NCBI GenBank assembly: GCA_945494195.1
Contig: CALYVJ010000004.1
Location: 1-19,163 of the forward strand
DNA from: an uncultured Selenomonas sp.
GTDB taxonomy: Bacteria > Bacillota > Negativicutes > Selenomonadales > Selenomonadaceae
Direction of reading: 5' to 3'
DNA length: 19,163 bases
Shown: in pieces, positions 272 through 19,163 of the stretch
Position numbering within the stretch: position 1 is the first letter of the stretch
How the letters are laid out: each line of letters opens with the position of its first letter
Position numbers and translations under genes: made by a program
The notes under the pieces: model-generated
Databases searched by the model: none
The model's input: the letters and a program-made list of their open reading frames with translations, nothing else
Told to the model about the DNA's origin: nothing

Positions 272-284
272 ATGATGTAGCTGG

Positions 285-330: not shown

Positions 331-375
331 ATGAAGGAGCAGGGATTTTAGTCATGGATAGCGAAAAATTAAGTA

Positions 376-405: not shown

Positions 406-458
406 TAAGGAAATAGTGTCACGTAGTCTTAAGTATTAAAAGAAGCAGGTGAGCATTT

Positions 459-1322: not shown

Positions 1323-1326
1323 TACG

Positions 1327-1791: not shown

Positions 1792-1816
1792 GCTTTTTGT
1801 ATGGAATTTATGATTG

Positions 1817-1851
1817 AGTATTGCATAAATTATCATTTATGCAATACTTTT
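1817..1851 (+). terminator. Intrinsic terminator after cheX
   Basis: Two perfectly complementary 14-base arms (1817-1830 and 1835-1848) enclose the tetraloop TATC, and the transcript continues into UUUUACU, with the T run starting inside the right arm. This is a strong hairpin 25 bases after the cheX stop. It separates cheX from the chemoreceptor gene. Confidence 0.75.
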
Positions 1852-1878
1852 ACTATGAGTTCCTAAGATGTGTGTGTG

Positions 1879-1896
1879 CCGGATTGGGGAATCCGG
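1879..1896 (+). promoter_or_regulatory. Hairpin in the chemoreceptor leader
   Basis: CCGGATT (1879-1885) and AATCCGG (1890-1896) are perfectly complementary around a GGGG loop, 14 bases before the AGGAGG ribosome-binding site of the chemoreceptor gene. There is no T run, so it is not a terminator. It may stabilise the mRNA 5' end or be a protein-binding site. No similarity to the c-di-GMP riboswitch core was seen. Confidence 0.4.
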
Positions 1897-1924
1897 TGAG
1901 GAAGAGAATCAGGAGGTTAGTTTG

Positions 1925-3931
1925 ATGAAATTAAACAGCCTACGGACAAAGTTTTTGGCGGGGTTTCTGCCAATGTTTGTCGGCAGCTTTTTTGTGTTTT
2001 TGGCAATCAGCGACTACATGTCCAGCAATGTGATGTTTGAAAGTGCGGATATGATTTCCCGGGAAATCGGTAAAAGTACCGCATTGCAGATTGAAAAAAA
2101 ATACTTGGAAAAGGAAATGATCGTTGAGGGATTGGCACTCAATCAGGGAATCATTTCTGGTGACCGCGAGCAGCGCACGAAGATTATGGCAAACCTCAAG
2201 TCGAGGTCGGCTGGGTTTGCCATGCTGGCTTACTCTGATGTAAACGGCAACGCCTATAGCGAGACCGGAAAAGATATGGACCGCTCATCCCGTGACTACA
2301 TCAAGAAGGTTCGCGAGACGAAAAAGCCCTATATGACCGGTCCGTCTGTTTCTGGAACGACGGGAAAACTCATTACGATTATGGCGTATCCGGTGCTGGA
2401 TAATGGCAATTTGGTCGGTATTGTCTACGGCACGATTGAGTTGGAGGAAATCTCGGAAATTGCGGGCAATATCAAGTATATGGAAACTGGCCATGTTTAT
2501 ATCGCCGACCAGGAAGGTCTGGTTATCGCTTATGCGCAGCAGCCAGATGATGTCGGCAAGTTGGATATCTCCAAAGAGACGTCCAGCAAGACTATCGATA
2601 AGGCCTTAGTGGATGGCTATAACAAGGCCATCAAGGAGGATAAGCAAGTTGTCACGGAATACAGGACTTCCGCAGGGGTAGATTCTCAGGCGGTTATGAC
2701 GCCGATTCACCTGGGAAATCGCACCTGGCTGGCTGTTTCGGTAGCACCTCTGGATGAAATCCGTGCGGATGCCAATAACTTGGTTCGCGTGCTGACGTTG
2801 GTCGGAGTAGTTATGGTTCTGGCCGTCGCAATCATCATTTGGATCGTTTCAGGCAAGATGGTTGCACCAGTTGTTTCGCTGCGTGAGGATTGCCGGATCC
2901 TCAACGACGGGGATCTTCGTTCGCGGCCGTTGTCCGTAGATACCAATGACGAACTCGGTGAATTAGCCCGCGGTTTTGAAAATATGCGGCAGACGATCCG
3001 CGGCCTCATTGGCAGCATTCAGAGCAGCGCAGAAAAAGTTTCCGCTTCGGCTGAGGAACTTACGGCTGCTTCGCATCAGTCCGCTGATGCATCCAATCAG
3101 GTCGCTCAGCAGATTACGGATATTGCCACGGGGATTGCCAATCAGTCGGAACTGGCTGAGGCAGCTGACCAAGCCGCTCAGGATATTGCGGGCCGTACGG
3201 ATGATGTTGTCATGAATACGGAGGCAATTTCTTCTGTTACCCAGATGACGGTGGAGAGTGTCACCTCTGGCCGCGATGCCATCAATACGGTAGTTGATTC
3301 CATGCAGAATATCAGCAACAGCACTTCGACGGTCAAGACATCTATTCAGGCATTGTCGAAGAGTTCCGACGAAATCAGCAAGATTGTCGAAATGATTTCT
3401 GGTATTGCGGAGCAGACGAATCTTTTGGCACTTAATGCAGCGATTGAGGCTGCCCGAGCCGGTGAAGCCGGCCGCGGCTTTGCTGTGGTCGCCGATGAAG
3501 TTCGCAAGCTGGCGGAAGAGTCGGCAGCTTCAACGCAGCAGATTGCCGCTCTCGTGACAAAAATCCAGCGTGATATGAAAGATGCTGTGGAGGCAAGTGA
3601 GCTCAGCGCAGAAAGCGTTGCCAGCAGCATGGATTCGGTCAAGAGTGCCGATGAAGTATTCGAGTCCATCAAGATTTCTATCCAGTCGTTGGCGATGGGA
3701 ATCGAGGAGGTCACGACAAACTTCCGCAGCATTGCGGAAGGTACGAAGACGATGCAGCATTCGGTGAATAACATCGCCGAAATCAGCAGCCAGAATGCAT
3801 CCCGGGCGCAGTCGGTATCGGCTACGACGGAGGAACAGTCGGCTTCTACCCAGGAAATTGCGGCAGCAACCCGCAGTTTGGCAGAGCAGGCAGAGCAGCT
3901 GGCGCATCAAATTGATAAATTCCGGACCTGA
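1925..3931 (+). CDS. Methyl-accepting chemotaxis protein, Cache type
   Basis: This is a 668-residue transmembrane chemoreceptor. A membrane segment at about residues 10-28 is followed by an extracytoplasmic sensing region of about 250 residues that looks like a double Cache domain. A second membrane segment lies at about 286-308, then a HAMP linker, then a long helical signalling domain. The signalling tip is clear from [19 protein letters not shown] and the following [18 protein letters not shown], the contact region for CheA and CheW. The ATG at 1925 has AGGAGG 8 bases upstream; an in-frame ATG at 1868 would add a cysteine-containing 19-residue leader with no ribosome-binding site. There is no C-terminal tethering pentapeptide; the protein ends DKFRT. 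The ligand cannot be named; amino acids are common for this Cache class. The gene appears monocistronic, between two terminators. Confidence 0.95.
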
Positions 3932-3951
3932 TGGAGGTCATCCTTAAGGCA

Positions 3952-3982
3952 GCGGCCCACCGTTATGGTGGGCCGCTTTTTT
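3952..3982 (+). terminator. Strong intrinsic terminator after the chemoreceptor
   Basis: The 10-bp GC-rich stem GCGGCCCACC / GGTGGGCCGC encloses the loop GTTAT and is followed directly by six T residues (3977-3982). This is a textbook Rho-independent terminator. Confidence 0.95.
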
Positions 3983-3994
3983 CGAAAAATATAG

Positions 3995-4023
3995 TTGGCA
4001 ATGCTTGCACATTGGTTTATAAT
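3995..4023 (+). promoter_or_regulatory. Sigma-A promoter of ywiB-argS-rpoE
   Basis: TTGGCA (3995-4000) and TATAAT (4018-4023) are separated by 17 bases. The match is 5 of 6 at -35, perfect at -10, with ideal spacing. It lies directly after the chemoreceptor terminator and about 34 bases before the ywiB start. Confidence 0.85.
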
Positions 4024-4056
4024 AGTGTACAGCATGTTTTTTAAAGAGGTGATTAT

Positions 4057-4500
4057 GTGAGCGCAATGAATCCGGTCGTTGTCCGGGTACGCGGCAGCCA
4101 ACGGGATGACAGCGGGGAAGAGAATACCATCGAATCCATGGCGTTGGGCCGTCACTCGGTTAAGAACGGGAAGCATTACGTGCTTTATGAAGATGCCATG
4201 CTGGATGAGAAGGCGAAGACTTCCACAGTGCTGAAATTCAGTAATGAGGAAGTGGTAATCCTGCGAAAAGGCGGCGTGCATCAAGAAATGCGCTTCCGGG
4301 AAGGTGCTGAGACAAGCAGCATGTACCGGACACCTTATGGAGATTTGAAACTGTCCGTTCGCACGAACAGACTTCGGGTGAGTCTGGGGCTGATGGAAGG
4401 GGGTATTGAAGCTGAGTACGACATTGCTATTGACGGCCGGTATCAGAGCAGCAATACCTTGCAGGTTCAAATCACGAAAGACGAGAAACAAAAAGACTGA
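4057..4500 (+). CDS. ywiB: YwiB-type DUF1934 protein
   Basis: This 147-residue protein matches the DUF1934 (YwiB) family: small, beta-rich, lipocalin-like barrel proteins found next to argS in many Firmicutes, with no established function. Alternating beta strands are evident (YVLYEDAML, VVILRKGGVHQEM, DLKLSVRTN, LRVSLGL, EAEYDIAIDGR), with no signal peptide or membrane segment. The GTG at 4057 has GAGGTG 5 bases upstream; the next in-frame start is ATG 4066. The overlapping ATGTGA at 4055 is an out-of-frame ATG followed at once by a stop. It is the first gene after a consensus promoter and sits 39 bases ahead of argS, so it is expressed with a translation enzyme, but a role in arginylation is not established. 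Confidence 0.85.
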   Translation: MSAMNPVVVRVRGSQRDDSGEENTIESMALGRHSVKNGKHYVLYEDAMLDEKAKTSTVLKFSNEEVVILRKGGVHQEMRFREGAETSSMYRTPYGDLKLSVRTNRLRVSLGLMEGGIEAEYDIAIDGRYQSSNTLQVQITKDEKQKD

Positions 4501-4539
4501 AAGCTGCCCTGTCGGACAGATTTAGGCTAGGGGGATACT

Positions 4540-6195
4540 ATGGATATCAAAGATACACTCTCGGCTGCTATAGAGCAGGCCGCGAAAGATGCGATTGCCG
4601 ATGGCGTTTTCCCAGACGGAGAATTGCCGAAAATCGTTTTGGAAGTTCCGCCGCAGAAAGAGTTCGGTGATTTTGCCACGAATTTTGCGATGCAGTCAGC
4701 CCGCGTATTCCGCAAGAATCCGCGTCAGATTGCGGAGGAATTGTCTCAACGAATCAATGGGGATTGGCTGGATCATACGCAGATTGCCGGCCCGGGATTC
4801 TTGAATTTTTATTTGAAGGGCAATGTCCTTTACGATTCCTTCCTGAAGATCCTGGAAGCTGGGGAATCTTTTGGCCAGCTTTCGGCAAAGGAGGCACCCA
4901 AAATCCAGGTGGAGTATGTCAGTGCTAACCCGACCGGCCCGCTTCATGTAGGCCATGGCCGTGGTGCTGCTGCAGGTTCTGCACTGGTCAATCTGCTTCG
5001 GGCAGCTGGTTATCCGGTAGAAAGTGAGTACTACATCAACGATGCCGGCAATCAGATGAATAATTTGGCCCGTTCGGTAAACGCCCGCTATCTGGAAATT
5101 CTGGGCCGTGACGTCGAATTCCCGGAAGATGGCTATCATGGCCAGGATATTGTGGATACGGCAAAGCGAATTATTGACAAAGAGGGCGATAAGTACCTCA
5201 ACTTGGAGGAAGAAGAGCGCCTGAAGATTTTCCAGGATTTGGCCTATGTGGAAAAACTGGCAGCACTGAAGGAAGATTTGGCGGCTTTTCAGGTCACCTT
5301 TGACAAATGGTTCAGTGAGCGCACGCTTCATCCAGAGGCTGTCAAGGCGGCAGTCAAGATTTTGCAGGACAACGGCAATATTTATGAGCAGGATGGTGCA
5401 CTGTGGCTGAAATCTACGGCCTATGGTGACGACAAGGACCGTGTAGTCATTCGCGATAACGGCGTACCGACTTATCTGGCGGCCGATATTGCCTACCATC
5501 ATAATAAATATGAGCGCGGTTTTGACCGTCTCATCAACATTTGGGGCGCTGACCATCATGGGTATGTCTGCCGTGTAAAGGCAGCCATGGAGGCTCTGGG
5601 GCACGATCCTAAGAAACTGACGGTACTGTTGTTGCAGATGGTGGCGCTCTACCGTGGTGGCGAATTGGTCAAGATGAGCAAACGCACGGGGCAGAGTGTT
5701 ACCCTCAATGAGCTCATGGAAGAAGTTGGCACCGATGCTGCCCGTTACTTCTTCCTGATGCGTTCTTTGGACAGCCAGTTGGATTTTGATCTTGACCTTG
5801 CCAAGAAGAAATCCAATGATAATCCGGTTTATTATATCCAGTATGCTCATGCCCGCATCTGCAGCATCTTCCGTCAGGCGGAAGAGACGAAGCTGGTTCT
5901 GGGAGATAAACCGGAACTCAGCTTGCTGACGGACCCGTCAGAGATTGATCTCATCAAGAAGCTTGAAGAGTATCCCGAAGAAGTGGAGAAGGCTGCGGCG
6001 GATTACGCTCCGCAGCGCATCGCCCGCTACAGCTATGATTTGGCGGCGCTGTTCCACAGCTTCTATAATAAGTGCCGTATCATGGGGGTTGAGCCGAAGC
6101 TGGCTGAGGCCCGTCTGGCACTGGTGACGGTTACGGCGCATGTCATTCGTCACTCCCTTGGCATCCTTGGCGTTTCTGCCCCGGATCATATGTAA
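4540..6195 (+). CDS. argS: Arginyl-tRNA synthetase
   Basis: This 551-residue class I aminoacyl-tRNA synthetase charges tRNA-Arg with arginine using ATP in the cytoplasm. An N-terminal tRNA-recognition domain (about 1-90) precedes the Rossmann catalytic core. The HIGH motif is present as H136-V-G-H139 within NPTGPLHVGHGRG, and the KMSKS loop as K378-M-S-K-R-T-G384. A DALR-type anticodon-binding helical domain fills about 440-551 and ends in the typical Ile-Leu-Gly-Val stretch. Length is normal for the family. AGGGGA five bases upstream supports the ATG at 4540. No T-box leader fits in the 39-base gap after ywiB, so expression probably depends on the ywiB promoter. Confidence 0.98.
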   Translation: MDIKDTLSAAIEQAAKDAIADGVFPDGELPKIVLEVPPQKEFGDFATNFAMQSARVFRKNPRQIAEELSQRINGDWLDHTQIAGPGFLNFYLKGNVLYDSFLKILEAGESFGQLSAKEAPKIQVEYVSANPTGPLHVGHGRGAAAGSALVNLLRAAGYPVESEYYINDAGNQMNNLARSVNARYLEILGRDVEFPEDGYHGQDIVDTAKRIIDKEGDKYLNLEEEERLKIFQDLAYVEKLAALKEDLAAFQVTFDKWFSERTLHPEAVKAAVKILQDNGNIYEQDGALWLKSTAYGDDKDRVVIRDNGVPTYLAADIAYHHNKYERGFDRLINIWGADHHGYVCRVKAAMEALGHDPKKLTVLLLQMVALYRGGELVKMSKRTGQSVTLNELMEEVGTDAARYFFLMRSLDSQLDFDLDLAKKKSNDNPVYYIQYAHARICSIFRQAEETKLVLGDKPELSLLTDPSEIDLIKKLEEYPEEVEKAAADYAPQRIARYSYDLAALFHSFYNKCRIMGVEPKLAEARLALVTVTAHVIRHSLGILGVSAPDHM

Positions 6196-6225
6196 AGAAA
6201 AAGAATTGGAAGGAGACCATTATCT

Positions 6226-6555
6226 ATGGATTTCGTCAATAGCTCGGAAGTCGATATCGCTTACTATGTTCTGACTCAGAAAGGGAAGACTATTTATTAC
6301 AAAGACTTGGTTCTCGAGGTTATCGAGAAAAAGCATAAGCCGGTTCAGTCCCTGTCGGCAGCAATTTCGGAAGTATATACCCTCATCAATATGGACAGCC
6401 GTTTCCACTATGAGGGAGATGGGCAGTGGGGCCTTACGGAGTGGAACCCGCCAGAAATCAAGCGTCACAGCAGCCGTTCTGGTGCTGGCAAATCCAAAGC
6501 TGCCAACAAAGCTATCAATAATCGACAGAAGAAGTTGGAGAGCATCCAAGAATAA
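6226..6555 (+). CDS. rpoE: RNA polymerase delta-like protein with basic tail
   Basis: The N-terminal 75 residues match the HARE-HTH domain of the Firmicutes RNA polymerase delta subunit: a winged-helix fold ending in the signature DSRF (57-60), then GQWGLTEW (66-73). The position between argS and pyrG also fits rpoE. The protein is only 109 residues, whereas Bacillus RpoE is about 170 with a long acidic tail. Here residues 77-109 are net basic (nine Lys/Arg against three Glu), so the nucleic-acid-displacing activity attributed to the acidic tail is probably absent or altered. The ATG at 6226 follows GGAAGGAGA at good spacing, 30 bases after argS, so it is co-transcribed with ywiB-argS. Binding to RNA polymerase is inferred from the family. 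Confidence 0.85.
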   Translation: MDFVNSSEVDIAYYVLTQKGKTIYYKDLVLEVIEKKHKPVQSLSAAISEVYTLINMDSRFHYEGDGQWGLTEWNPPEIKRHSSRSGAGKSKAANKAINNRQKKLESIQE

Positions 6556-6569
6556 TCCTGTTTCAGGAT
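6555..6569 (+). promoter_or_regulatory. Palindrome just upstream of the pyrG promoter
   Basis: ATCCTG (6555-6560), TTT, CAGGAT (6564-6569) is a perfect inverted repeat starting at the last base of the rpoE stop codon and ending one base before the pyrG -35 box. It lacks a T run, so termination is unlikely. It may be an operator for pyrG or chance. Confidence 0.3.
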
Positions 6570-6570
6570 A

Positions 6571-6599
6571 TTGACAGTCTGGGTCAAAAAGGATAGAAT
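6571..6599 (+). promoter_or_regulatory. Sigma-A promoter of pyrG
   Basis: A perfect TTGACA (6571-6576) and TAGAAT (6594-6599, 5 of 6) are spaced by 17 bases. The predicted start site near 6605 gives a leader of only about 38 bases. The initially transcribed region (GGCAACATG) lacks the GGGC start, and the leader lacks the attenuator hairpin, known for CTP-controlled pyrG in Bacillus. Confidence 0.85.
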
Positions 6600-6621
6600 A
6601 GGCAACATGTTATTTCAATAA

Positions 6622-8256
<1,635 letters not shown>

Positions 8257-8259
8257 AAG

Positions 8260-8300
8260 AAAAAAGCCTTGGATTTCCTTAGGAAATCTAGGGCTTTTTT
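8260..8300 (+). terminator. Intrinsic terminator after pyrG
   Basis: AAAAAAGCC (8260-8268) begins a stem of about 19 bp, with a few mismatched or wobble pairs, that closes over TT-A and ends with GGGCTTTTTT (8291-8300). The A run and T run extend the stem, so it could also act on the - strand. It starts 4 bases after the pyrG stop. Confidence 0.85.
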
Positions 8301-8334
8301 CTTACAAAAATCTTTGGGCGCGGGAGGATTTCGA

Positions 8335-9039
8335 ATGAAGGTTGGCGAAGTATACTCCCAAATGATGATGGAAATGGGATTCGCCAGAAAGGAGGAGATG
8401 GTGATGCTTATCGATACGGCCTGTTCTTTAGCGTTCTACTGCCAATGCTGCGGCCGGATACAGCTCCAGGATGTGCCGCTCTTCAGCGGGCAGAAGCACT
8501 TCGTGATGGAATGCGGCAATTGTGGGCATACGATGGGAGAAATAACGTGGAAACCGCGCAAGGGCTTGTTGCTGAAGACGGTCTGTGGGGCTTGCAGGGG
8601 GGAGAACCAGCAGCAGTTTACCTGGCGGCAATTACGCCGCCTGCGCTTTGAAAAACTCTATTGCGAACATGACAATTTTGAGCTGGGGTATATTGGCCAG
8701 TGGCAGGCTATTGCTGAATTCTTGGATTTCAATGATGCCGAATACGATTCCCTGCATCCCAATGATGGGGACAGGTTCCTGGAACGGCAGCAGACGTTAT
8801 TAGAAGCGTTGAACCGGGTACACGATTTGGCAAGCAGTGGGGAGCTTGAGTGTCCTTGTGGAAGTTCTGAGATTTCGGCAGCGGTGCGTGGCGAAGAGAT
8901 TATCCTTGAATGTCAGGCCTGTGGATCTTATTGCATTCTCCCGGCACATAATGCTGAGAATTTGCAGAATCTGCGTCCAGGGATGGCATCAGCGTTTGTA
9001 TGGAAACCGCGGTCGTTTCTTGACGTCCGGAAAAAATAG
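8335..9039 (+). CDS. Cysteine-rich multi-zinc-ribbon protein, unknown function
   Basis: I do not recognise this 234-residue protein as a named family. It is soluble and rich in CxxC-type pairs: C36/C39 with C60/C63, then C84/C87, and near the C terminus C173/C175 with C193/C196 and C200. These are most simply read as two or three zinc ribbons around an acidic, helical middle (about 105-165). Such proteins often bind RNA, DNA or other proteins, but nothing shows which. The start is uncertain. ATG 8335 has GGGAGGA 6 bases upstream; ATG 8404 has a stronger AAGGAGG at about 8 bases and would give 211 residues beginning MLIDTACSLAFYC. The gene lies between the pyrG terminator and mfd, with no clear promoter of its own. 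Confidence 0.75.
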   Translation: MKVGEVYSQMMMEMGFARKEEMVMLIDTACSLAFYCQCCGRIQLQDVPLFSGQKHFVMECGNCGHTMGEITWKPRKGLLLKTVCGACRGENQQQFTWRQLRRLRFEKLYCEHDNFELGYIGQWQAIAEFLDFNDAEYDSLHPNDGDRFLERQQTLLEALNRVHDLASSGELECPCGSSEISAAVRGEEIILECQACGSYCILPAHNAENLQNLRPGMASAFVWKPRSFLDVRKK

Positions 9040-9072
9040 GATTATTATAAATAGCATTGAATTGTTTTTACA

Positions 9073-9112
9073 GGGACTATCGGCTGCTGATGCAGCCGGC
9101 AGTCCCATTTTG
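9073..9112 (+). terminator. Hairpin before mfd, probable terminator
   Basis: GGGACT (9073-9078) pairs with AGTCCC (9101-9106) and the inner CGGCTGC (9081-9087) pairs with GCAGCCG (9092-9098), with a small internal bulge and a TGAT loop. The tail ATTTTGG is short. It is probably a weak terminator for the zinc-ribbon gene, with some read-through into mfd. Confidence 0.55.
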
Positions 9113-9141
9113 GCGTAATGAAAACAGACAGAGGTGTAAGG

Positions 9142-12100
9142 ATGAATTCTTTATTGGCAGCTATGGGACAGGATACTGCAGTGCAGAAGCTGCAGGCCTG
9201 CTTTGCGGGCAAGGCCTGTGAGGTGCTGGCCTATGGGTTGGGGAGTTCTCAGAAGCATGTGGCCTTTGCGTCCTGCTATGGAAATGCTCCGCAGCCATGG
9301 GTGATATTGGTGCATAACCGGGATATGGTGAATGCCTGGCGGGAAAATCTAACGGCCCTGCTGCCTGAGACTGCGGTAGTAGAGCTGCCGGAACTGGATA
9401 TGGAAAATGTCCAGGCGGCGGCGAAGAGCTTGGAACGATCCGCGCGGCGCATGGATGTACTCGGCCGGCTCATGCGGCATGAACCGGTCATTGTGCTGGC
9501 GACAGCGGCAGCCGCTGTCCAAAAGGGGATGAGCCGCAATGAATTTGAACGGCTGAGTTTGCGGATCCAGCTGGGGCAGCAGTTCTCGCGAGAGCAGCTG
9601 TTGAAACATTTGGTCCAGCTGGGGTACGAGAATGCTGTTGATGTGGAAAGGGTAGGTCAGTTCAGTGCCCGGGGAGGCATCGTGGATGTCTATCCCATCA
9701 ACAGCCCTGCTCCTGTGCGTATTGAGTTTTTTGATGATGAAGTGGACTCTCTCCGGGAATTTGACTTGGAGACGAAACGCTCAATCCGCAATATCGGCAG
9801 TGCGGCTATCCTTCCACTGGCTCAGACAGATGCTTCGGGGCGCCCGGAACTTTTCTTGACCTATTTGGAAAAACGCGGGGCCGTACTTTTCGATGAACCG
9901 ATACGAATTCGTGAACAGATCAAGACCATGGTACGGGAAAATCCGGATATCAAATCGGAGGTTTTCCGTTGGGAAGATATGCTGGCTGCGGCGAAGGGTA
10001 ACCATGTATTTTATTCTGCGCTGATGCTGCAGCAAGTTCATGGGGCAGAGCCTGAGCAGACGATTAGCTTTACGGCTACCAATATGACGCCTTTCCAGCG
10101 GCAGATGGATTTGTTGGAGAATGAGGCAAATCGCTGGCTGGGGCAGAAGCAGCGTGTTTTGGTATTACTCGGTGACCGGGAAAAAGCCAACTCCATGCGG
10201 GAGCTCTTAGCCCGCCATCGGGTTCCCTCGGCGGTGGTGGAAGAAGCGGCAGCTCTGCGAGAGGATTTAGTGAACATCCAGCAGGGGACGCTTCTCTCCG
10301 GTTTTGAAATGGCTTCGGCAAGACTGGTAGTGGTGACGGAGAAAGATATTTTTGGTCATCAGAAGCGCAAAACAATCCGGCCATCCCATAAAGGAGAGCG
10401 GATTGCTCATTTCCGGGAGATCAAGCCTGGTGACTATGTGGTCCATGTCAATCACGGTATTGGAAAATATCTTGGGGTTGAGACACTGGAAGTCGGCGGC
10501 ATCCATAAGGATTACCTGCATATCAAGTATGGTGGCGATGATAAGCTCTTCGTGCCTACCGATCAGGTGGGCCTGCTGCAGAAATACATCGGTTCAGAGG
10601 GGGATGTTCCCCGTTTGCATCGCATGGGTGGTACTGAGTGGGTCAAGGCAAAAGCAAGGGCCAAGAAATCCGTGGAGGATATTGCCAAGCAGCTCATCGA
10701 GATTTATGCGAAACGCAGGCAGGCAAAGGGCTTTGCTTTTTCTCCGGATGATGCGACGCAGCAGGATTTTGAAGATTCGTTTCCCTATCAGGAGACGGAG
10801 GACCAGCTCCGGGCGATTGACGAAATCAAGGCGGATATGGAAAAAGAGAAGCCGATGGAACGCCTGTTATGTGGTGATGTAGGCTTTGGCAAGACCGAGG
10901 TAGCAATCCGGGCGGCCTATAAGGCTGCGATGGATGGGAAACAGGTGGCGGTGCTGGTGCCAACCACGGTGCTGGCTCAGCAGCATTATAAGACCTTCAG
11001 TTCCCGCTTTATGGATTTTGCGCCCCAGGTGGATGTAATCTGTCGGTTCCGCTCGGCAAAGGAGCAGAAAGAAACCATTGAGAAGGTAAAGACGGGGAAA
11101 GTGGATATCCTGATTGGTACTCATGCCATACTTAATCAAAACAAGGTTCAGTTCAAGAATCTCGGTTTGTTGATTGTCGATGAGGAACAGCGTTTTGGTG
11201 TTAAGCAGAAGGATAAGATTCGCAGCTTGGCGGCGGGAATCGATGTGCTGACGCTTTCAGCTACGCCGATTCCGCGGACGCTTCATATGTCTTTGGTTGG
11301 GGCACGGGATATGAGCATCATCGAAACGCCGCCGGCAGAGCGTTTTCCGGTGCAGACTTATGTGGTGGAAAATAACGATACCGTTTTGGCTAATGCGATC
11401 AAGCGAGAATTGAAACGTGGCGGTCAGGTTTATTTTGTCTATAACCGCGTCGATACCATCGACCGTATGCGTGATCATATCCAGCAGCTGGTTCCCGATG
11501 CTCGGATTCAAACGGCACATGGACAGATGCCCGAAGATATGCTGGAGCAGGTTATGATGGATTTTTATGAGGGAGCTTATGATATTCTGTTGGCCACCAG
11601 TATTGTCGAAAATGGATTGGATGTGGCTAATGCCAATACAATCATTGTCTACAATGCCGATCATTTTGGGTTATCGCAGCTTTATCAGATGCGTGGCCGG
11701 GTGGGGCGTTCCCATCATATGGCTTTTGCGTATTTTGTCTATCAGGCTGATAAGATCTTGACGGAAACTGCCGAGAAGCGGTTGCAGGCGATGAAGGAAT
11801 TTGCCGAACTGGGGGCAGGGTTCAAGATCGCTATGCGGGATTTGGAAATACGCGGTGCAGGAAATCTGCTGGGGTCACAGCAGCATGGGCATATCGCCAG
11901 TGTCGGTTTCGAGATGTACTGCAAGCTGCTCGAAGAAGCCGTAGAGAAGATGAAAAACGGCAAGAAGGAAGTGGAAGCACCGAAACCGGACCCGATTATC
12001 GACTTGCAGGTCGAAGCGTATCTTGATGGCGGATATATTGACGATGCCATGCATAAGATTGAAATTTATCAGCGTATTGCCGCCATCCGCAAGAATGAGG

Positions 12101-12474
12101 AGCTGCGCAACCTGCTGGATGAACTGATTGACCGTTTTGGGGACCCGACTAAGCCGGTTATGCATCTTTTGGAGGTGGCACGCATAAAAAATTATGCCCG
12201 GGATCTTTCCATCCGCTCGATTACGGAGATGCCGAAGGCGCTGGATATTTATTTGCTTCCCGGATATAAAATGCCGGTTAAGGGGATGATAGCACTGGAT
12301 AAATTGTTTGGCCGGAGCATGCGGGCTCTGCCGGATAAAAACGGTTTTCGCTTCGCCTTGAATGACAAATACAAGAAAAATATCACGAATTTCGTCACGC
12401 GGCTGCTTATGATTGCCACGGGAGAGGAAGCAGCTGCTGGAGAAAAAAACAAGGGTAGAACAACGGACAGATAA
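9142..12474 (+). CDS. mfd: Transcription-repair coupling factor Mfd
   Basis: This 1110-residue ATP-dependent DNA translocase removes RNA polymerase stalled at lesions and recruits UvrA for nucleotide excision repair. The N-terminal third is UvrB-like (for example [14 protein letters not shown] and the [15 protein letters not shown] segment). A CarD-like polymerase-interaction domain follows ([16 protein letters not shown] region). The helicase core has Walker A G578-D-V-G-F-G-K584-T585, Walker B D680-E-E-Q683, the [12 protein letters not shown] motif and QMRGRVGRS. The C-terminal TRCF domain includes the [19 protein letters not shown] segment. The ATG at 9142 has GAGGTG five bases upstream; the in-frame ATG at 9118 lacks a good site. 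Length is normal. It begins the segment syntenic with Bacillus mfd-yabN and is followed after 15 bases by the methylase-like gene. Confidence 0.97.
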
Positions 12475-12489
12475 GACAGGAGAGAGAAT

Positions 12490-13176
12490 ATGGCAACAAT
12501 CACAGTAGTAGGATTGGGTCCGGGGCGTGCTGGACTCATTACCCGGGAGAGTTGGGAACTCATGGAAAAGGCGGAGCGATTAATATTGCGCACGCGGATC
12601 CATCCTACCGTTGAGGTTTTGGAGACAGCGGGGATGAACTTTTCCACATACGATGGGTTCTATGATGAGGCAAAGGATTTTGAGACGTTGTACCGGAAGA
12701 TAGCGGCCGATCTTTTGGTACGGGCGGCAGCAGACGGCGATATCGTCTATGCGGTTCCGGGCAGCCCCTTGGTAGCTGAGCGCACTGTTGTGCTCTTGCG
12801 GGAGCTGGGGAAGGAGTCGGCCGTGACGGTGGATATCCGGCCGGGCATGAGTTTTGTCGAGGTCATGTATACCCGGTTGGGGATTGACCCCATTGACGGG
12901 CTTACGATTATCGATGCCGAGGATGTGGAAACGCTGAAGGAAGCTCCAGCTCAGTCGCTGGTCATCACCCAGGTCTATAACCAGCAGATTGCGTCGGATA
13001 CCAAGCTCATGCTGATGGAGTTGTATCCAGATGAATATGAAGTCACCTATATCCACAACTTGGCTTTGCCAGATGAATCCATCCGGCAGATTCCTCTTTA
13101 TGAGCTGGACCGCCAGAGGGATGTGGATCATCTTACGAGCTTGTTTATTCGTGCGAAAGCCTGTGGGATAGAATAA
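12490..13176 (+). CDS. Tetrapyrrole-methylase-type protein, YabN N-terminal half
   Basis: This 228-residue protein is a SAM-dependent tetrapyrrole (corrin/porphyrin) methylase fold domain: TVVGLGPG (5-12) at the N terminus, YAVPGSPLVAERTV in the middle and ELYPDEYEVTYIHN later. It corresponds to the N-terminal half of Firmicutes YabN, where the domain is fused to a MazG NTP pyrophosphohydrolase of roughly 250 further residues. Here the frame stops at LTSLFIRAKACGIE and no MazG sequence follows before the HU promoter, so the pyrophosphohydrolase half is absent at this locus. The methylase substrate is unknown even for YabN. The ATG at 12490 lies behind AGGAGAG, 15 bases after the mfd stop, so it is in the mfd operon. 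Confidence 0.8.
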   Translation: MATITVVGLGPGRAGLITRESWELMEKAERLILRTRIHPTVEVLETAGMNFSTYDGFYDEAKDFETLYRKIAADLLVRAAADGDIVYAVPGSPLVAERTVVLLRELGKESAVTVDIRPGMSFVEVMYTRLGIDPIDGLTIIDAEDVETLKEAPAQSLVITQVYNQQIASDTKLMLMELYPDEYEVTYIHNLALPDESIRQIPLYELDRQRDVDHLTSLFIRAKACGIE

Positions 13177-13220
13177 TTGAATAAGGGGGCGCGTTTTTTA
13201 GCGTTTTTTCGTGAAAGCCC

Positions 13221-13249
13221 TTGATTTTTATTTACTTTTCTGTTACATT
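13221..13249 (+). promoter_or_regulatory. Extended -10 promoter of the HU gene
   Basis: TTGATT (13221-13226) and TACATT (13244-13249) are spaced by 17 bases, and the -10 is preceded by TG at 13241-13242, giving an extended -10 (TGTTACATT). This implies a leader of about 70 bases before the GTG start of the HU gene. A GCCGATAA at 13262 resembles a motility-sigma -10 but has no matching -35. Confidence 0.6.
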
Positions 13250-13325
13250 CACTATTAGCAGGCCGATAAATGCGCATGGCATTGCTAGAGCCTGGGAAAA
13301 GGTATTTTTTAAGGGGGCTGCAACT

Positions 13326-13601
13326 GTGAATAAAACTGAATTGGTAGCCGGTGTTGCCGAAAAAACTGGTATGACGAAAAAAGATGCGGAAAAAGCAGTA
13401 AATGCACTGTTTGAGAGCATTCAGGAGGCTTTGACTTCAGGCGACAAAGTCCAGATGATTGGTTTTGGCACCTTTGAGGTAAAAGAGCGTCCGGCACGTA
13501 AAGGTCGCAATCCGCGCACAGGCGAGGATATCGTGATTCCGGCATCGAAAAATCCTGGTTTTAAGGCTGGCAAAGCATTGAAAGATGCAGTCAATGGATA
13601 A
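13326..13601 (+). CDS. hup: DNA-binding protein HU
   Basis: This 91-residue histone-like protein binds and bends DNA as a dimer and helps organise the nucleoid. It starts NKTELV after the initiator and carries the family signature [20 protein letters not shown] (about residues 47-66), which forms the DNA-gripping arm, then the helix-forming [15 protein letters not shown]. Length matches the family (about 90). The GTG at 13326 is preceded by AAGGGGGC at about 8 bases; the longer in-frame opening from 13221 is mainly promoter and leader and encodes nothing HU-like. It has its own promoter and a near-perfect terminator, consistent with an abundant monocistronic product. Confidence 0.97.
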
Positions 13602-13626
13602 GTAAAGATCGTTTAAAGGCAATGCA

Positions 13627-13656
13627 CCGGGTTCCTTCGGGGACCCGGCTTTTTTT
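13627..13656 (+). terminator. UUCG-loop terminator after HU
   Basis: The 9-bp stem CCGGGTTCC / GGGACCCGG closes over the very stable TTCG tetraloop (one G-T pair) and is followed by CTTTTTTT. It is a textbook terminator 25 bases after the HU stop. Confidence 0.95.
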
Positions 13657-13693
13657 ATGAAGAATGGTTGAATGAGAAGGGAGCTGGATTCTG

Positions 13694-14452
13694 ATGGAAT
13701 ATCAGGCCGCGAAGAAAGTCGTGATGATTTCAGGAGGAACGTCGGGGATAGGTCTTTCGGCCGCCAAGAGGTTCTTGAAGCGGGGGCTGCGTGTGGTTTT
13801 GCTCGGGCGGTCTGAAAGCCGTGGACAGGAAGCTGTGCGGGAATTGGAATCAGGGGAAGACGTTTGGTTTATTTCTTGTGATGTCAGCAGTCATGCGGAT
13901 TGTGATGAAGCGGTAGCAAAGGTGGTGAAGTGCTGGGGACGAGTGGATGTCCTGGTCAATTCGGCGGGAATTTATGTGGAAGGTGCCATTGAGGATATGA
14001 CGGATGCGTGTTTGGATGAAGTCCTTGATATCAACGTGAAGGGGACGTATTATCTATGCCAGGCTGCGGTAGGAGCCCTGAAAGCATCGCGGGGAAATAT
14101 CGTCAATGTTGCATCGGATGCTGGGGTTCATGGGAACTATTATTGTTCTGCCTATTGTGCCAGTAAAGGGGCAGTTGTTATGTTTACCAGAGCGCTGGCT
14201 CTGGAATTGGCTGGTTTTGGCGTCAGGGTCAATGCGATTGCCCCTGGAGATATTTTGACTCCGCTGACAGAAAAACAGCTGCAAGCGTCGCCAAACCGCG
14301 AAGAAGCCTTACGGCAGATGGCGTCGGTTTATCCGCTGGGGCGTATTGGTACACCGGAGGAAGCTGCTGCGTTGATCCTCTTTTTGGCATCTGCGGAAGC
14401 GTCCTTTGTAACTGGAGCAATTTGGGGCGTTGATGGTGGATTGACCGCTTGA
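13694..14452 (+). CDS. SDR-family oxidoreductase (FabG-like)
   Basis: This 252-residue classical short-chain dehydrogenase/reductase binds NAD(P) in a Rossmann fold. The glycine motif is G14-G-T-S-G-I-G20, D63-V64 fits the adenine-contact position, and NSAG (89-92) replaces the usual NNAG. The catalytic tetrad is intact: N114, S141, Y154 and K158 (YCASK). R39 after the second beta strand suggests NADP(H), which is inference. The C terminus has the common WGVDGGLTA ending. The fold resembles 3-oxoacyl-ACP reductase and sugar-alcohol dehydrogenases, and the substrate cannot be assigned. No fatty-acid genes lie nearby. The ATG at 13694 follows AAGGGAG. The gene lies between the HU terminator and a glycosyltransferase gene that seems to have its own promoter. 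Confidence 0.85.
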   Translation: MEYQAAKKVVMISGGTSGIGLSAAKRFLKRGLRVVLLGRSESRGQEAVRELESGEDVWFISCDVSSHADCDEAVAKVVKCWGRVDVLVNSAGIYVEGAIEDMTDACLDEVLDINVKGTYYLCQAAVGALKASRGNIVNVASDAGVHGNYYCSAYCASKGAVVMFTRALALELAGFGVRVNAIAPGDILTPLTEKQLQASPNREEALRQMASVYPLGRIGTPEEAAALILFLASAEASFVTGAIWGVDGGLTA

Positions 14453-14456
14453 AATA

Positions 14457-14465
14457 TGATACAAT
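14457..14465 (+). promoter_or_regulatory. Extended -10 promoter before the glycosyltransferase
   Basis: TGATACAAT (14457-14465) is an extended -10 element: TG, one base, then TACAAT (5 of 6). No good -35 lies at the right distance, which is tolerated for extended -10 promoters. The predicted start near 14472 would give a leader of about 33 bases before the proposed ACG start. Confidence 0.45.
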
Positions 14466-14504
14466 AGAAAGGTGTGTATTTTTATACAGAGAGGAGGGTG
14501 AAGT

Positions 14505-15632
14505 ACGAAAGCGTTCAAGATTTTGCTGCTGACAGCATCGATCGGGTCAGGGCATATTAAGGCAACGGAGGCCATTGAAGAGGCGCTGCGGGAAATATTG
14601 CCCCAGGCAGATATCACTACGGTTGACTTCATGTCGCGCCAGACATCCTGGGTTCATTGGCTCATGAAGAAAATCTATTTGATTATGCTGGATTTTGTGC
14701 CGAATCTTTATGATGTCTTTTACAAGATATCCGGAGGGGCTTCGGGTGGCTCGTTAGCACAGAGTGCGTTTGCTGTTATCATGCAGCCGGTGGCAGACCG
14801 GATTATCCGGGCGGCGGCGCCTGATGTGGTGATTTGTACGCACCCGTTTCCGGAGGGGGCAGCCTCATTATGGAAAAAACGTCACGATTCCCCGCTTCCT
14901 TTGGTGGTGGTCATGACGGACTACTCCTTGCATCAGATATGGTTGTATCCGCGGGTAGAGGCATATTTTATGGCGACGGAAGCGATGCGTCAGGAAATGA
15001 TTGCGAAAGCATTTTCCGGGGCAAGACTGCATGCAGCGGGAATTCCCGTTGATATGTCGCTCCAGGGGCTGCCGGGAAAAGCTGCTTTGCGGGATGCTTA
15101 CGGATTGCCGCAAAATAATCCGGTAATCCTCTTGATGGGAGGAGGTCTCGGATTAGGTGGGATTAAGGAAACACTGCTGGAGCTTGAGAAGATTCCGCAG
15201 CCGCTTACCTTGCTGGTGATTGCCGGGCGCAATGAGCGATTGCTGGAAGAAGTACGCAAGTGTGCCACCCAATATCATCATTTGGTGAAAGTGTGGGGAT
15301 TTACCGATAAGGCCCATGAGCTCATGGGGGCGGCAGATCTTTTGATTACTAAGCCTGGAGCGCTGACTATCAGTGAAGCTTTCGTATTGGGATTACCTAT
15401 GCTGCTGCATGATCCGATACCAGGACCGGAGATGGAAAATGCGGTTTATGCAACGAAGCATGGCGCAGCTGTTTGGTTGCATCCGGGAGAAAAATTAGCA
15501 CCGGCTGTACAGGAACTTTTGGCAGGGGATTGTCTAAAGCGTATGTCGGTTAAGGCAGGGGATTGTGCCAGACCGGCTGCGGCCATGGAAATAGCACATT
15601 GCATCGCAGCAATGCTGGCGGGCAAAAAATAA
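14505..15632 (+). CDS. MGDG-synthase/UgtP-type glycosyltransferase, apparent ACG start
   Basis: This 375-residue GT28-type protein has an N-terminal MGDG-synthase domain beginning KILLLTASIGSGHIKATEA (the GxGH acceptor/membrane loop at 14-17) and a C-terminal nucleotide-sugar-binding domain with KPGALTISEA (283-292). Relatives transfer glucose or galactose from a UDP-sugar to diacylglycerol on the inner membrane face; related MurG-like enzymes use GlcNAc. Donor and acceptor here are unknown. The start is unusual. The frame is closed by TGA at 14499, and the only codon at proper spacing (6 bases) from AGGAGGG (14492-14498) is ACG at 14505. The next standard start, TTG 14523, is 24 bases from that site and would remove the first beta strand. 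Either ACG is used, or an ATG has been mutated or misread. Confidence 0.82.
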   Translation, partial: TKAFKILLLTASIGSGHIKATEAIEEALREILPQADITTVDFMSRQTSWVHWLMKKIYLIMLDFVPNLYDVFYKISGGASGGSLAQSAFAVIMQPVADRIIRAAAPDVVICTHPFPEGAASLWKKRHDSPLPLVVVMTDYSLHQIWLYPRVEAYFMATEAMRQEMIAKAFSGARLHAAGIPVDMSLQGLPGKAALRDAYGLPQNNPVILLMGGGLGLGGIKETLLELEKIPQPLTLLVIAGRNERLLEEVRKCATQYHHLVKVWGFTDKAHELMGAADLLITKPGALTISEAFVLGLPMLLHDPIPGPEMENAVYATKHGAAVWLHPGEKLAPAVQELLAGDCLKRMSVKAGDCARPAAAMEIAHCIAAMLAGKK

Positions 15633-15653
15633 ATTCAAGAAGCTAGCAGGTTT

Positions 15654-15681
15654 TTGATATTATGACGAGGAATACTATATC
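15654..15681 (+). promoter_or_regulatory. Possible promoter of the double zinc-ribbon gene
   Basis: TTGATA (15654-15659, 5 of 6) and TATATC (15676-15681, 4 of 6) are 16 bases apart, about 50 bases before the start of the next gene. It is a plausible but unproven sigma-A promoter in the 100-base gap after the glycosyltransferase gene. Confidence 0.3.
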
Positions 15682-15733
15682 AACAGCCTGCGGACGGTTG
15701 GAGGGGATGAACTAGCTGTAGAAGGAATTGGTG

Positions 15734-16204
15734 ATGGAAATGGCCGTATTTCAATTAACAAAGGATGACAACAATCAGTTCATGTGCCCCAAATGCAAGG
15801 GAAAATTGCGCATGGTGGATGGCAAGGCGGTACAGATTGTCAATGGCAGAGCGGATATGAGTTCGATTTTGCCGAAATATGAATGCGATCATTGCGGGAT
15901 CTATTTTCAGGAACTTTTGGGATCTGGTTTTTATAGTGAGTATGATCTTCCACAGAAAAAGACGGCGAAGAAGATGGTAAAAACTGGTGACCTTCAACCG
16001 ATGGTTCTGAAACGTGACCGCAATAATCAATGTGTATGTCCACGTTGTGGCGAGATGATGGATTTTGTGGAGGGGCAGGCTGTCCGTTTGGTGGATGGTG
16101 TTCCTGATATGGAAAATGTCAAAGATCATTTTCATTGCAAACACTGCAATTCGACCTTTCGCCGGCTGGTTGCTACGGATTATTTCCAGTGGTCGGAAAA
16201 ATAA
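15734..16204 (+). CDS. Protein of two tandem zinc ribbons, unknown function
   Basis: I do not recognise this 156-residue soluble protein, but its structure is clear. It consists of two copies of one module, each with CPxC, then a GxAVxxVxGxxDM segment, then CxHC. Copy one uses C18/C21 and C51/C54; copy two uses C102/C105 and C135/C138. The distance between the first and third cysteine is 33 residues in both, and the copies are offset by 84 residues. A basic linker (KKTAKKMVK, about 75-83) joins them. Each copy probably binds one zinc ion. The ATG at 15734 has GAAGGA about 7 bases upstream; TTG 15728 and ATG 15740 are alternatives. It lies between the glycosyltransferase gene and divIC, where Bacillus has yabO/yabP/yabQ; it resembles none of these. 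Confidence 0.78.
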   Translation: MEMAVFQLTKDDNNQFMCPKCKGKLRMVDGKAVQIVNGRADMSSILPKYECDHCGIYFQELLGSGFYSEYDLPQKKTAKKMVKTGDLQPMVLKRDRNNQCVCPRCGEMMDFVEGQAVRLVDGVPDMENVKDHFHCKHCNSTFRRLVATDYFQWSEK

Positions 16205-16216
16205 TTGTCGATTGAC

Positions 16217-16245
16217 TTGCATCTCATAAAGTTTGCCGTTATCAT
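16217..16245 (+). promoter_or_regulatory. Possible promoter of divIC
   Basis: TTGCAT (16217-16222) and TATCAT (16240-16245, 5 of 6) are 17 bases apart, some 35 bases before the divIC start. The -35 is weak. A nearby TTGACT at 16212 is too far from the -10. Confidence 0.4.
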
Positions 16246-16281
16246 TAAGAGGATTGAGTTTTTTCAGAAGGAGGGATAATG

Positions 16282-16578
16282 ATGAATAACAGAAAACGGC
16301 CAAAGAAATATCGCGTCAGTTGGTTTTTTCTTTTGTTGGTCATCATTGTAGGTTATTTTGTCTCCATTCTGATATCCCAGCAGGTGTATCTCAGCCAGGT
16401 CAGCAGAGACCAGGCGGCAGCCGAAGCACGGCTGGCGGCCGCGCAGAAAGAGAATGAGGCCCTGCGGCAGGAAAAAGAAAAACTTAATGAATTGGGGTAT
16501 ATTGAAAAGATTGCCAGAGAAGAGCTGGGGATGACGCGCGCTGGAGAGCTTCCGTACACTACTGGAAGCCGGAATTGA
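16282..16578 (+). CDS. divIC: Septum formation initiator, DivIC/FtsB family
   Basis: This 98-residue bitopic membrane protein belongs to the DivIC/FtsB family, which pairs with FtsL and helps activate septal peptidoglycan synthesis at the divisome. A short basic cytoplasmic N terminus (NNRKRPKKYR) precedes one membrane helix (about residues 14-31), then a charged coiled coil outside the membrane (about 35-70), then the conserved YIEKIAREELGMTRAGE. Two ATGs lie side by side at 16279 and 16282; the second was chosen because AAGGAGGG (16268-16275) is then 6 bases away, and the difference is one residue. Its place just before the S1-domain gene and tilS matches the Bacillus divIC-yabR order. Confidence 0.92.
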   Translation: MNNRKRPKKYRVSWFFLLLVIIVGYFVSILISQQVYLSQVSRDQAAAEARLAAAQKENEALRQEKEKLNELGYIEKIAREELGMTRAGELPYTTGSRN

Positions 16579-16588
16579 GTGTTATCTG

Positions 16589-16613
16589 CCTTGACACTAT
16601 TCTATGGTCAAGG
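16589..16613 (+). promoter_or_regulatory. Inverted repeat overlapping the yabR promoter
   Basis: CCTTGAC (16589-16595) and GTCAAGG (16607-16613) are perfect 7-base inverted arms separated by 11 bases. The left arm contains most of the -35 box and the right arm ends one base before the -10. This is a typical layout for an operator. It could alternatively be a weak divIC terminator, but no T run follows. Confidence 0.45.
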
Positions 16614-16620
16614 TTATAAT
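16591..16620 (+). promoter_or_regulatory. Consensus sigma-A promoter of yabR
   Basis: TTGACA (16591-16596) and TATAAT (16615-16620) are both perfect, spaced by 18 bases, and lie 42 bases before the TTG start. It is the best match to consensus in the window, so it is expected to be strong unless repressed. Confidence 0.9.
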
Positions 16621-16661
16621 AATTCGTGTATTCTTTACTACATTAAGGAGGAAGAATTAAT

Positions 16662-17135
16662 TTGTCCATTGAAGTTGGCAGTGTGGTCGAGGGTGTCGTA
16701 ACCGGCATTACAAACTTTGGCGCATTCATCGAATTACCGGAGGGCAAGAATGGTCTTGTCCACATTTCAGAAGTCGCAGATGTTTATGTAAAAGATGTCC
16801 ATGATTTCCTCACAGAAAAAGATAAGGTTAAAGTCAAGGTCTTGACGATTGATGAAAAGGGCAAGATTGCGCTTTCTATCAAACAGCTCCAGGAGAAGAA
16901 GCCGGAGGAACATGTAGTTAAACCACATGCTGCTGCTGCGAGTGATTCTTCCGCCCGTCCCTTGCGTTCGCGGGCGCCACGTGATTTTCGGAAACCAAAT
17001 CGGTTCAACAATTCCAATGCATCGTTTGAGGATAAGCTTTCCCGCTTCCTCAAGGATAGTGACGAGCGTCTGACGGATTTGCGCCGTAAGACGGACTCAA
17101 AACGCGGAGGACGTGGTTCCCGTCGTTCGGACTAA
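16662..17135 (+). CDS. yabR: S1-domain RNA-binding protein, YabR-like
   Basis: This 157-residue protein has one S1 RNA-binding domain (about residues 5-75) with the typical GSVVEGVVTGITNFGAFIEL, GLVHISEVAD and KIALSIKQL segments, as in Bacillus YabR and the C-terminal domain of polynucleotide phosphorylase. A low-complexity tail rich in Lys, Arg and Ser (about 80-157, ending RGGRGSRRSD) follows and probably adds RNA affinity. The start is TTG at 16662, with AAGGAGGA about 9 bases upstream; no ATG is available near it. It is single-gene: a perfect promoter in front and a terminator behind. YabR-type proteins are thought to act on RNA or ribosomes, but the target here is unknown. Confidence 0.9.
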   Translation: MSIEVGSVVEGVVTGITNFGAFIELPEGKNGLVHISEVADVYVKDVHDFLTEKDKVKVKVLTIDEKGKIALSIKQLQEKKPEEHVVKPHAAAASDSSARPLRSRAPRDFRKPNRFNNSNASFEDKLSRFLKDSDERLTDLRRKTDSKRGGRGSRRSD

Positions 17136-17161
17136 TCGTGCGACAGTACATTGGTGATTTC

Positions 17162-17190
17162 AAAGCACTCTGCATAAGGGTGCTTTTGTT
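17162..17190 (+). terminator. Intrinsic terminator after yabR
   Basis: AAAGCACTC (17162-17170) pairs with GGGTGCTTT (17178-17186) as a stem of up to 9 bp with one G-T pair and a loop of about 7 bases, then TGTTCGTTTTATT. The T run is interrupted, so efficiency is uncertain and some read-through into tilS is possible; no strong tilS promoter was seen. Confidence 0.65.
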
Positions 17191-17222
17191 CGTTTTATTG
17201 CAGAAAGCTTGGTGATAGGGTT

Positions 17223-18623
17223 ATGATGGAAAAGGTGGAAAAGTTCTGCCAGCAGCATAACCTGTTGCCGGAAGGTGCGGGAATTCTCGTGGCTTGTTCT
17301 GGGGGGGCGGATTCGCTGGCTTTGCTGCTGGTTTTATGGCAGCTTCGCGAACGGTACCGGCTGCGCGTGGTAGCTGCGCATTACGAGCATGGTATCCGCG
17401 GGAGGGAATCCCAGGAGGATGCGGCTTTTGTGCAGTCCTTTTGCCGGCGGCATGGAATCCCTTTTCGGCTGGGACATGGGGATGTGCCGGCGCATGCTGC
17501 GGAAAAAGGGGTGTCTCTGGAAACGGCAGCCCGGAAGCTGCGGTATGCGTTCCTGGAAAATACTCGGCAGGAGTTGAAGCTGGAGTTCTTAGCGGTAGCC
17601 CATCATGCCGATGATCAGGCAGAAACCGTACTCATGCGTATCTTTCGGGGGACGGGTCCGGCGGGGCTGGCTGCTATGCGCCCGAAAAGTGGTGAAGATG
17701 GACATATCCTGCGCCCGTTTTTGGGGGTGACGAAGCCGGAAATCCGCCAGTGGTGTGCGCAGATGCATTTGTCTCCACGTGAGGACAGTACCAATCAACA
17801 GCTGGATTGTACACGGAATTTATTGCGGTTGCGCACGTTTCCTGCTTTGCAGCGGGAATATAATCCAGAACTGCCGAAGGCCTTGTGCCAATTGGCAGAA
17901 ATTGCCGCTGCTGAAAGTGATTATATCCAGGATCAGGTGGATGCGGTGTGGAAAAGCCCTTTGGTGGATCTGCAGAATGGCGCAGCTTTGCTGGTGGAGC
18001 GATTTGCTGAACTGCCGCTGGCGCTGCAGCGTGGTGTCGTCCGCAAATTCTGGCATTGCCTTACGGGCAGTGGAAGTGACCTGAGCTTTGTGCAGGTAGA
18101 AGAGGTGCGTCGGCTTTGTATGGAAAACAGGACGGGAAGCCGTCTGGAATTGCCAGGAGGATGGCTGGTGCGAATCGCTTACGGGCGGCTTCGCGGACAG
18201 TCAAAAGACTCAATGAGGCAGGCAGAACAGCTGCCGCCAGTACCGCTTCAAATTCCCGGCAGGACTGTCTGGGGAAGCTATGTCTGTGAAGCTGGTTGGT
18301 TAGAGGCGTTGCCAGACTCCACAGGGCCGTTTGAATATTACTTCTGCCCGGAGGCACTGGCGGAACCAATAGTTATCCGTCATCGGGAAGCTGGGGATGT
18401 AATCCAGCTTCCCAGTGGCCGCAAGAAACTCAAGCGGCTGCTGATTGACGACAAGATTCCTCAGGAAGAGCGCGGCCGGCTGCCTTTGCTTGCCGCCGGT
18501 CACGAAATATTATGGGTTGTGGGCCACCGGCGCAGCACGTTGTGCCTGGTGGATAAAGATACAACAGTTAAGAAAAAATTCTTATATCTCAAGATTCAAA
18601 GAAGAGAGGAACATTTATCATGA
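17223..18623 (+). CDS. tilS: tRNA-Ile lysidine synthase TilS
   Basis: This 466-residue enzyme attaches lysine to C34 of the tRNA-Ile with anticodon CAU, changing its identity to isoleucine and its codon to AUA. It is usually essential. The N-type ATP pyrophosphatase loop is S26-G-G-A-D-S31, followed by the AAHYEHGIRG and AVAHHADDQAETVLMR signatures. A central helical domain leads to the C-terminal TilS domain (about 385-455) with HREAGDVIQL, RLLIDDKIP and VVGHRRS. Length is typical. ATG 17223 is the annotated start, with ATG 17226 next to it; the ribosome-binding site is weak. The stop overlaps the next ATG as ATGA (18620-18623), the expected coupling to hpt, but the downstream gene is missing because of the junction. 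Confidence 0.95.
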   Translation: MMEKVEKFCQQHNLLPEGAGILVACSGGADSLALLLVLWQLRERYRLRVVAAHYEHGIRGRESQEDAAFVQSFCRRHGIPFRLGHGDVPAHAAEKGVSLETAARKLRYAFLENTRQELKLEFLAVAHHADDQAETVLMRIFRGTGPAGLAAMRPKSGEDGHILRPFLGVTKPEIRQWCAQMHLSPREDSTNQQLDCTRNLLRLRTFPALQREYNPELPKALCQLAEIAAAESDYIQDQVDAVWKSPLVDLQNGAALLVERFAELPLALQRGVVRKFWHCLTGSGSDLSFVQVEEVRRLCMENRTGSRLELPGGWLVRIAYGRLRGQSKDSMRQAEQLPPVPLQIPGRTVWGSYVCEAGWLEALPDSTGPFEYYFCPEALAEPIVIRHREAGDVIQLPSGRKKLKRLLIDDKIPQEERGRLPLLAAGHEILWVVGHRRSTLCLVDKDTTVKKKFLYLKIQRREEHLS

Positions 18624-18628
18624 TTCAC
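18620..18628 (+). other. Junction: start of the expected hpt gene joined to foreign DNA
   Basis: GAGAGGA (18604-18610) and ATGATTCA (18620-18627) look like the ribosome-binding site and first codons (Met-Ile-His) of the gene that normally follows tilS, hypoxanthine phosphoribosyltransferase. From about 18624-18626 the sequence instead matches the antisense of a GH95 gene. The frame read from this ATG gives 29 codons of unrelated sequence to a TAG ending at 18709. On the - strand the GH95 frame reads IRPP and then TGA, where the family has Trp (TGG), so the breakpoint can be placed within a few bases, with CA or CAC possibly shared by both sides. Confidence 0.75.
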
Positions 18629-19163
18629 GGCGGACGGATCGAGCTGTTCCAGATGCCCTGCAGCGTCGGGGGCTGTCCCCCCGGCTGGGACGACGAGATC
18701 AGGAGGTAGCGTCCGAAGGCGTAGTAGAGTTCCGGCAGGTACGGGTCGGGCGTCCTCTGGTAGTCACGCAGTAGCTGCGGGACGGTCTTCAGTTCCGATG
18801 CCGGATCGTGTCCAAGCCGGATCCGCGTCCGTCCGAACTGCGAACGGTACTTCCCGACATGCCGACGGCGCAGGGCGTCGTAGCCGAGGCCCTTCGCGGA
18901 CTCGAGAAGCCGCCGCGCCTTCGCCGTCTCGTCGACCGACTCCGCGTCGGCGTAGTTCCTGAAGCTTGTCGCGGCCGACCCCCACAGCACCACCTCGTCC
19001 GCACCGTCCACATAAATCGTCCCCTGCCGTATTTCGCAGCGCCCGCCCTTCACCTCCGGGATGACCAGCAGCTTGAAGCGCACCTTGCCCTCGACGTCCT
19101 TCCACGTGTTGGCGAGAAGCCACGGATTCGCGTAGCCGATGCCGCCCGCTTCCTCGCTCAAAC
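18625..19163 (-). CDS. GH95-type alpha-L-fucosidase fragment, both ends missing
   Basis: This frame of about 179 residues is an internal piece of a glycoside hydrolase family 95 protein, which releases alpha-1,2-linked L-fucose from glycans. Visible are the end of the N-terminal beta-sandwich (VLWGSAATSFRNYADAES), the linker with YRSQFGRTRIRLG, and the start of the catalytic barrel (LYYAFGRYLLISSSQPGGQP, LQGIWNSSIRPP). The family is usually about 750-800 residues. The catalytic Asn/Glu/Asp residues lie further downstream and are not present. The frame is open at the right edge; the TTG at 19161 is probably an internal Leu codon. The TGA at 18625-18627 is a product of the junction. The high GC and opposite strand differ from everything to the left, so this comes from another organism or a recent transfer. 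Confidence 0.8.
   Translation of the reverse strand, partial: LSEEAGGIGYANPWLLANTWKDVEGKVRFKLLVIPEVKGGRCEIRQGTIYVDGADEVVLWGSAATSFRNYADAESVDETAKARRLLESAKGLGYDALRRRHVGKYRSQFGRTRIRLGHDPASELKTVPQLLRDYQRTPDPYLPELYYAFGRYLLISSSQPGGQPPTLQGIWNSSIRPP

Follow-up and report, generated by a model that had tools for sequence, protein, structure and literature searches.

The window analysed here spans the entire contig C4 (19,163 bases), one of 340 in a 2.03-Mb draft genome whose listed completeness and contamination are 82.47% and 0.02. Most of its length carries genes which, named from their translations, are presumably argS, pyrG, mfd, hup, an S1-domain gene and others, and this run closes with tilS and the very start of hpt. 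The name Selenomonas and the gene names hpt, ftsH, argS, pyrG and mfd are presumptive, read off the sequences or inherited from the original prediction; tilS and GH95 are named from profile matches. Past this point lies a short antisense fragment of a very different kind. The features discussed below are as follows.

6..18624, plus strand: native backbone, collinear with same-genus genomes (blastn against G019 and G010)
17223..18623, plus strand: tilS, intact, 466 aa (PF01171, PF11734 and PF09179; TIGR02432 and TIGR02433)
18620..18624, plus strand: first five bases of hpt, ATGAT, overlapping the tilS stop codon; the remainder of the gene is absent from C4
18624..18626, no strand: the join; base 18625 fits neither side when compared with the closest relatives
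18626..19161, minus strand: foreign tail, an antisense fragment of the GH95 (alpha-L-fucosidase) family (PF22124, E = 9.6e-25)

Searching the two sides of the join separately, as the original prediction had proposed, gives two different answers: the native side returns its own genus, and the nearest relatives found for the tail, at 56–58% identity, belong to a Kiritimatiellia-class set of genomes. On the native side, positions 6 to 18632 align to two same-genus genomes as a single blastn alignment each (G019, 88.5% over 18,642 columns; G010, 86.5% over 18,643 columns), the last eight bases of both being a chance extension beyond the join. These uninterrupted alignments show that up to the join the window is ordinary chromosome in collinear order. 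The tilS product is 84% identical to that of another genome (G020) across residues 1 to 466. Elsewhere in the backbone, just past the pyrG stop codon, positions 8259 to 8303 form a terminator-like near-palindrome ending in a T run; this stretch also matches the equivalent site of G019 in inverted orientation, as expected of a near-palindrome.

The abrupt switch that had been placed directly after the tilS stop codon is confirmed and can be located at 18624/18625–18626. Agreement with the equivalent locus of G019 (L004) is complete in the 20-base blocks starting at 18585 and 18605 (20/20 each) and falls from 18625 onward to 7/20, 5/20, 6/20 and 8/20 in successive blocks. In the three nearest relatives hpt starts with ATGATGAACGACGAT, and the window departs from it after ATGAT, so that hpt is lost after fewer than two codons and not, as originally described, after about three. 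On the other side, the GH95 antisense frame can be traced to 18626, at the TG of a tryptophan codon. This codon, which follows ...RPP, reads TGA in the window and TGG in all 53 homologous rows (51 distinct loci; 33 of 33 in a separate comparison), bearing out the proposal that the GH95 frame breaks at its RPPW motif. The conserved GH95 continuation, the tryptophan followed by an NIN segment, is unlike the end of tilS.

A further detail, that two or three bases at the join would fit either side, did not hold: compared with the three nearest relatives, base 18625 agrees with neither side, and no run of adjoining bases at the join matches both. Bases 18627 to 18629 (ACG) do match both sides, by chance and after two mismatches. 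Base 18625 could itself be native; L009, a more distant genus member in which hpt begins ATGATT, has T there. The tail shares no exact word of at least 9 bases with the opening 200 bases of hpt in L004; the one 8-base word that they have in common lies inside the tail, at 18902. Joining through a shared word, or an assembler repeat, is thus disfavoured as the cause, an indirect argument in that it is made with relatives and not with the donor's own sequence.

The tail is a genuine GH95 sequence, GC-rich (0.664) and antisense as first described, but only a fragment of one. Its 178-residue translation matches PF22124 at residues 93 to 178 with 87.8 bits against a cut-off of 27, covering the first 87 of the 408 catalytic-domain positions, and among the matches listed the residues preceding this part resemble the upstream region of GH95 proteins. 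One end of this gene fragment is cut within the xPPW tryptophan codon, and the contig end truncates the other. The tail is the single occurrence of PF22124 found in this genome, and a search for the family in the genus's 21 other genomes (15 at least 90% complete, six under 90%) was negative. In a protein collection, 16 proteins match the 178-residue fragment. The one with the best E-value shares 48% identity across 87% of the fragment, and the higher identities among the 16 (50–82%) span no more than 18–58% of its length; the truncated fragment itself has no copy among these proteins.

The nearest relatives found for the tail occur in four genomes of a class-level set of 345, which includes RUG11823 and a Kiritimatiellae MAG and whose class name, Kiritimatiellia, is taken from the title of one locus (L034). 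Some match to the tail is given by 178 of the 345 genomes, and the best identity among them is 58%; the donor itself was not found. The four nearest loci have a GC content of 0.63–0.65, against 0.664 for the tail. A tree groups the tail with these four genomes on a long branch and with weak support (85/45). It was built from all 53 rows, of which L098 and L099 duplicate L033 and L035, hence the 51 distinct loci; L096 and L097 were left out because their genomes already contribute L032 and L034.

That the GH95 sequence might be a resident gene, and the join a normal arrangement of this lineage, finds its one argument in the continuity of the contig. The join breaks both reading frames, which already contradicts this view, and all 21 relatives carry the other arrangement, in which tilS is directly followed by hpt (20 of 21 identified by motif, the last, L010, by eye because the motif was too strict). 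The chance that the gene is resident in this way is close to negligible.

Composition separates the two sides as well. GC content is 0.528 in the 538 bases before the join and 0.664 in the 538-base tail. Across 538-base windows taken from 23 contigs out of 340 (with C1 and C2 truncated at 20 kb and the tail excluded), the tail exceeds all 1,245 in GC content, the highest comparison window reaching 0.638. The tetranucleotide comparison suggested with the original prediction places the tail as more divergent than 1,243 of the 1,245 windows; the two more divergent ones are both AT-rich and lie at the end of C5. The next GC-rich contig end in this comparison, at the 5′ side of C9, served as a control; it was considered as a second chimeric end and rejected, since its alignments begin at its very first base in 22 of 22 genus genomes, the nearest at 85–90%, and it is native. 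Because a GC-rich contig end can be native, composition alone is insufficient and homology decides.

Two other regions of the same draft genome also drew attention. At the 3′ end of C5 (L079, G000:C5, 17674–19144), where the last 538 bases have a GC content of 0.28, an open frame comes after an N6/N4 DNA methylase gene and has neither a Pfam match nor a counterpart among the 21 other genomes of the genus; this end is perhaps a restriction-modification island, or another foreign end. On C17 (L091, G000:C17, 612–2442), a resolvase-like gene, judged by eye, precedes an IS605 OrfB/TnpB-type gene, both within the contig's AT-rich 5′ part, and the pair looks like an IS607-type element.

The deciding evidence is a second contig, C154, which carries the native continuation within the same draft genome. 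Reversed, C154 starts inside hpt; its alignment to G019 opens at relative position 19248 and runs at 95.1% over 753 columns, then at 89.3% over 4,551 columns. Window base 18624 corresponds to position 19071 of that genome, leaving 176 bases missing between C4 and C154. A 271-base probe spanning the tilS-hpt junction of a relative recovers from this genome only positions 18572 to 18632 of C4 and the end of C154, and foreign DNA is absent from the hpt end of C154. As read from these alignments, hpt is present in the bin and split by an assembly gap, and the GH95 tail occupies the position of that gap. Another strain of the bin could be the source of C154, and with 176 bases missing the intact native junction is seen on no single piece in the sample.

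Hallmarks of an integrated element were not found at the join. No tRNA was found in the window, and no integrase or transposase was recognised among its frames, which were judged by eye apart from tilS and the tail, the two searched against family-library profiles. Repeats between 18300 and 18950 comprise one 21-base direct pair with copies on either side of the join (76% identity; 18523–18543 and 18861–18881), together with another direct pair and two inverted pairs that are each confined to one side. The 21-base pair was rejected as a target-site duplication because its copies lie too far from the join, about 80 and 235 bases away. The proposed lack of a tRNA, target-site duplication and transposase at the join is therefore upheld, by the tRNA and repeat searches and by inspection of the frames. 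Neither an integrase or transposase, nor a tRNA or attachment site, nor boundary repeats were found that would mark a mobile element or genomic island, and one boundary only lies within the contig. The exact 29-base junction pattern has no match in viral contigs, and the join was not found in phage records.

Against this background, a real recombination or insertion that brought foreign GH95 DNA to the hpt start inside a cell, in a strain or subpopulation, is improbable. A base-sharp join next to an intact tilS is what such an event might leave, and some plasmids of other bacteria do carry relatives of GH95, in 71 out of 72,556 plasmid records, every one of them at less than 60% identity. Yet the event would have severed hpt in its second codon and imported a gene that is itself cut mid-codon, with no tRNA, flanking repeat, or integrase or transposase recognisable by eye. 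The tail is wholly unadapted in composition, PF22124 is undetected in the 21 genus relatives, the contig stops 538 bases into the tail so that one boundary only is visible, and the hpt gene continues on C154, whose end there is free of foreign DNA. A narrower version, in which a community strain gained the GH95 piece from a Kiritimatiellia-like donor through illegitimate recombination that disrupted hpt in a subpopulation, is a shade less probable still.

The best reading, as the original prediction had favoured, is that the contig end is a chimera, a library or assembly artefact in which a GH95 piece of about 538 bases sits on native chromosome; judged from the sequences, its probability is roughly 0.94. 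It is supported above all by the continuation on C154, and further by the tilS-hpt order in 21 of 21 relatives, by the lack of detected PF22124 in those relatives, and by the tail's nearest kin found, which lie in another phylum. We infer that the join formed during library preparation or assembly and not in a cell. A Selenomonas-like contig would have halted at a gap at the hpt start, after which a chimeric fragment or a false extension would have attached about 538 bases of a GH95 gene. The donor would be an unrelated GC-rich organism of the same community, probably of the Kiritimatiellia class. Because the join shows neither an overlap nor a shared word of at least 9 bases, a physically chimeric read or fragment, or a low-coverage extension, appears more plausible than a shared k-mer. 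A single short read would probably not span the tail, in which case the assembler must have continued some distance into the donor.

Chimeric contigs arising from misassembly are a well described phenomenon. The article on GUNC (PMC8201837) defines misassembly as the wrong assembly of fragments from multiple sources, yielding chimeric contigs. Its authors hold misassemblies to be relatively rare compared with mis-binning, a point that counts against reading the contig as a chimera. Species of low to intermediate coverage are treated in a second article (PMC7881036). C4 resembles the interspecies chimeric contigs of metagenome-assembled genomes in joining two lineages without a mobile-element signature, at a contig end and in a fragmented bin. 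Its two sides have homologues in different lineages, in another phylum for the tail, and the continuation of the native side is located elsewhere in the assembly, on C154, 176 bases downstream. No substantive difference from such contigs was noted; here the native continuation is also identifiable in the same bin. With the GH95 alpha-L-fucosidase family (PF22124) the tail shares the start of the catalytic domain, but unlike family members it is merely a fragment, cut at both ends, and uninformative about the Selenomonas-like host.

The switch is almost certainly a matter of assembly quality and not a real biological feature, and contig C4 should be used only as far as position 18624. A bin with a listed contamination of 0.02 can thus harbour some 540 bases of chimeric end. 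For the organism itself, the GH95 sequence should not be credited to its genome, and on this evidence neither a fucosidase capacity nor a gene transfer between phyla should be attributed to it.
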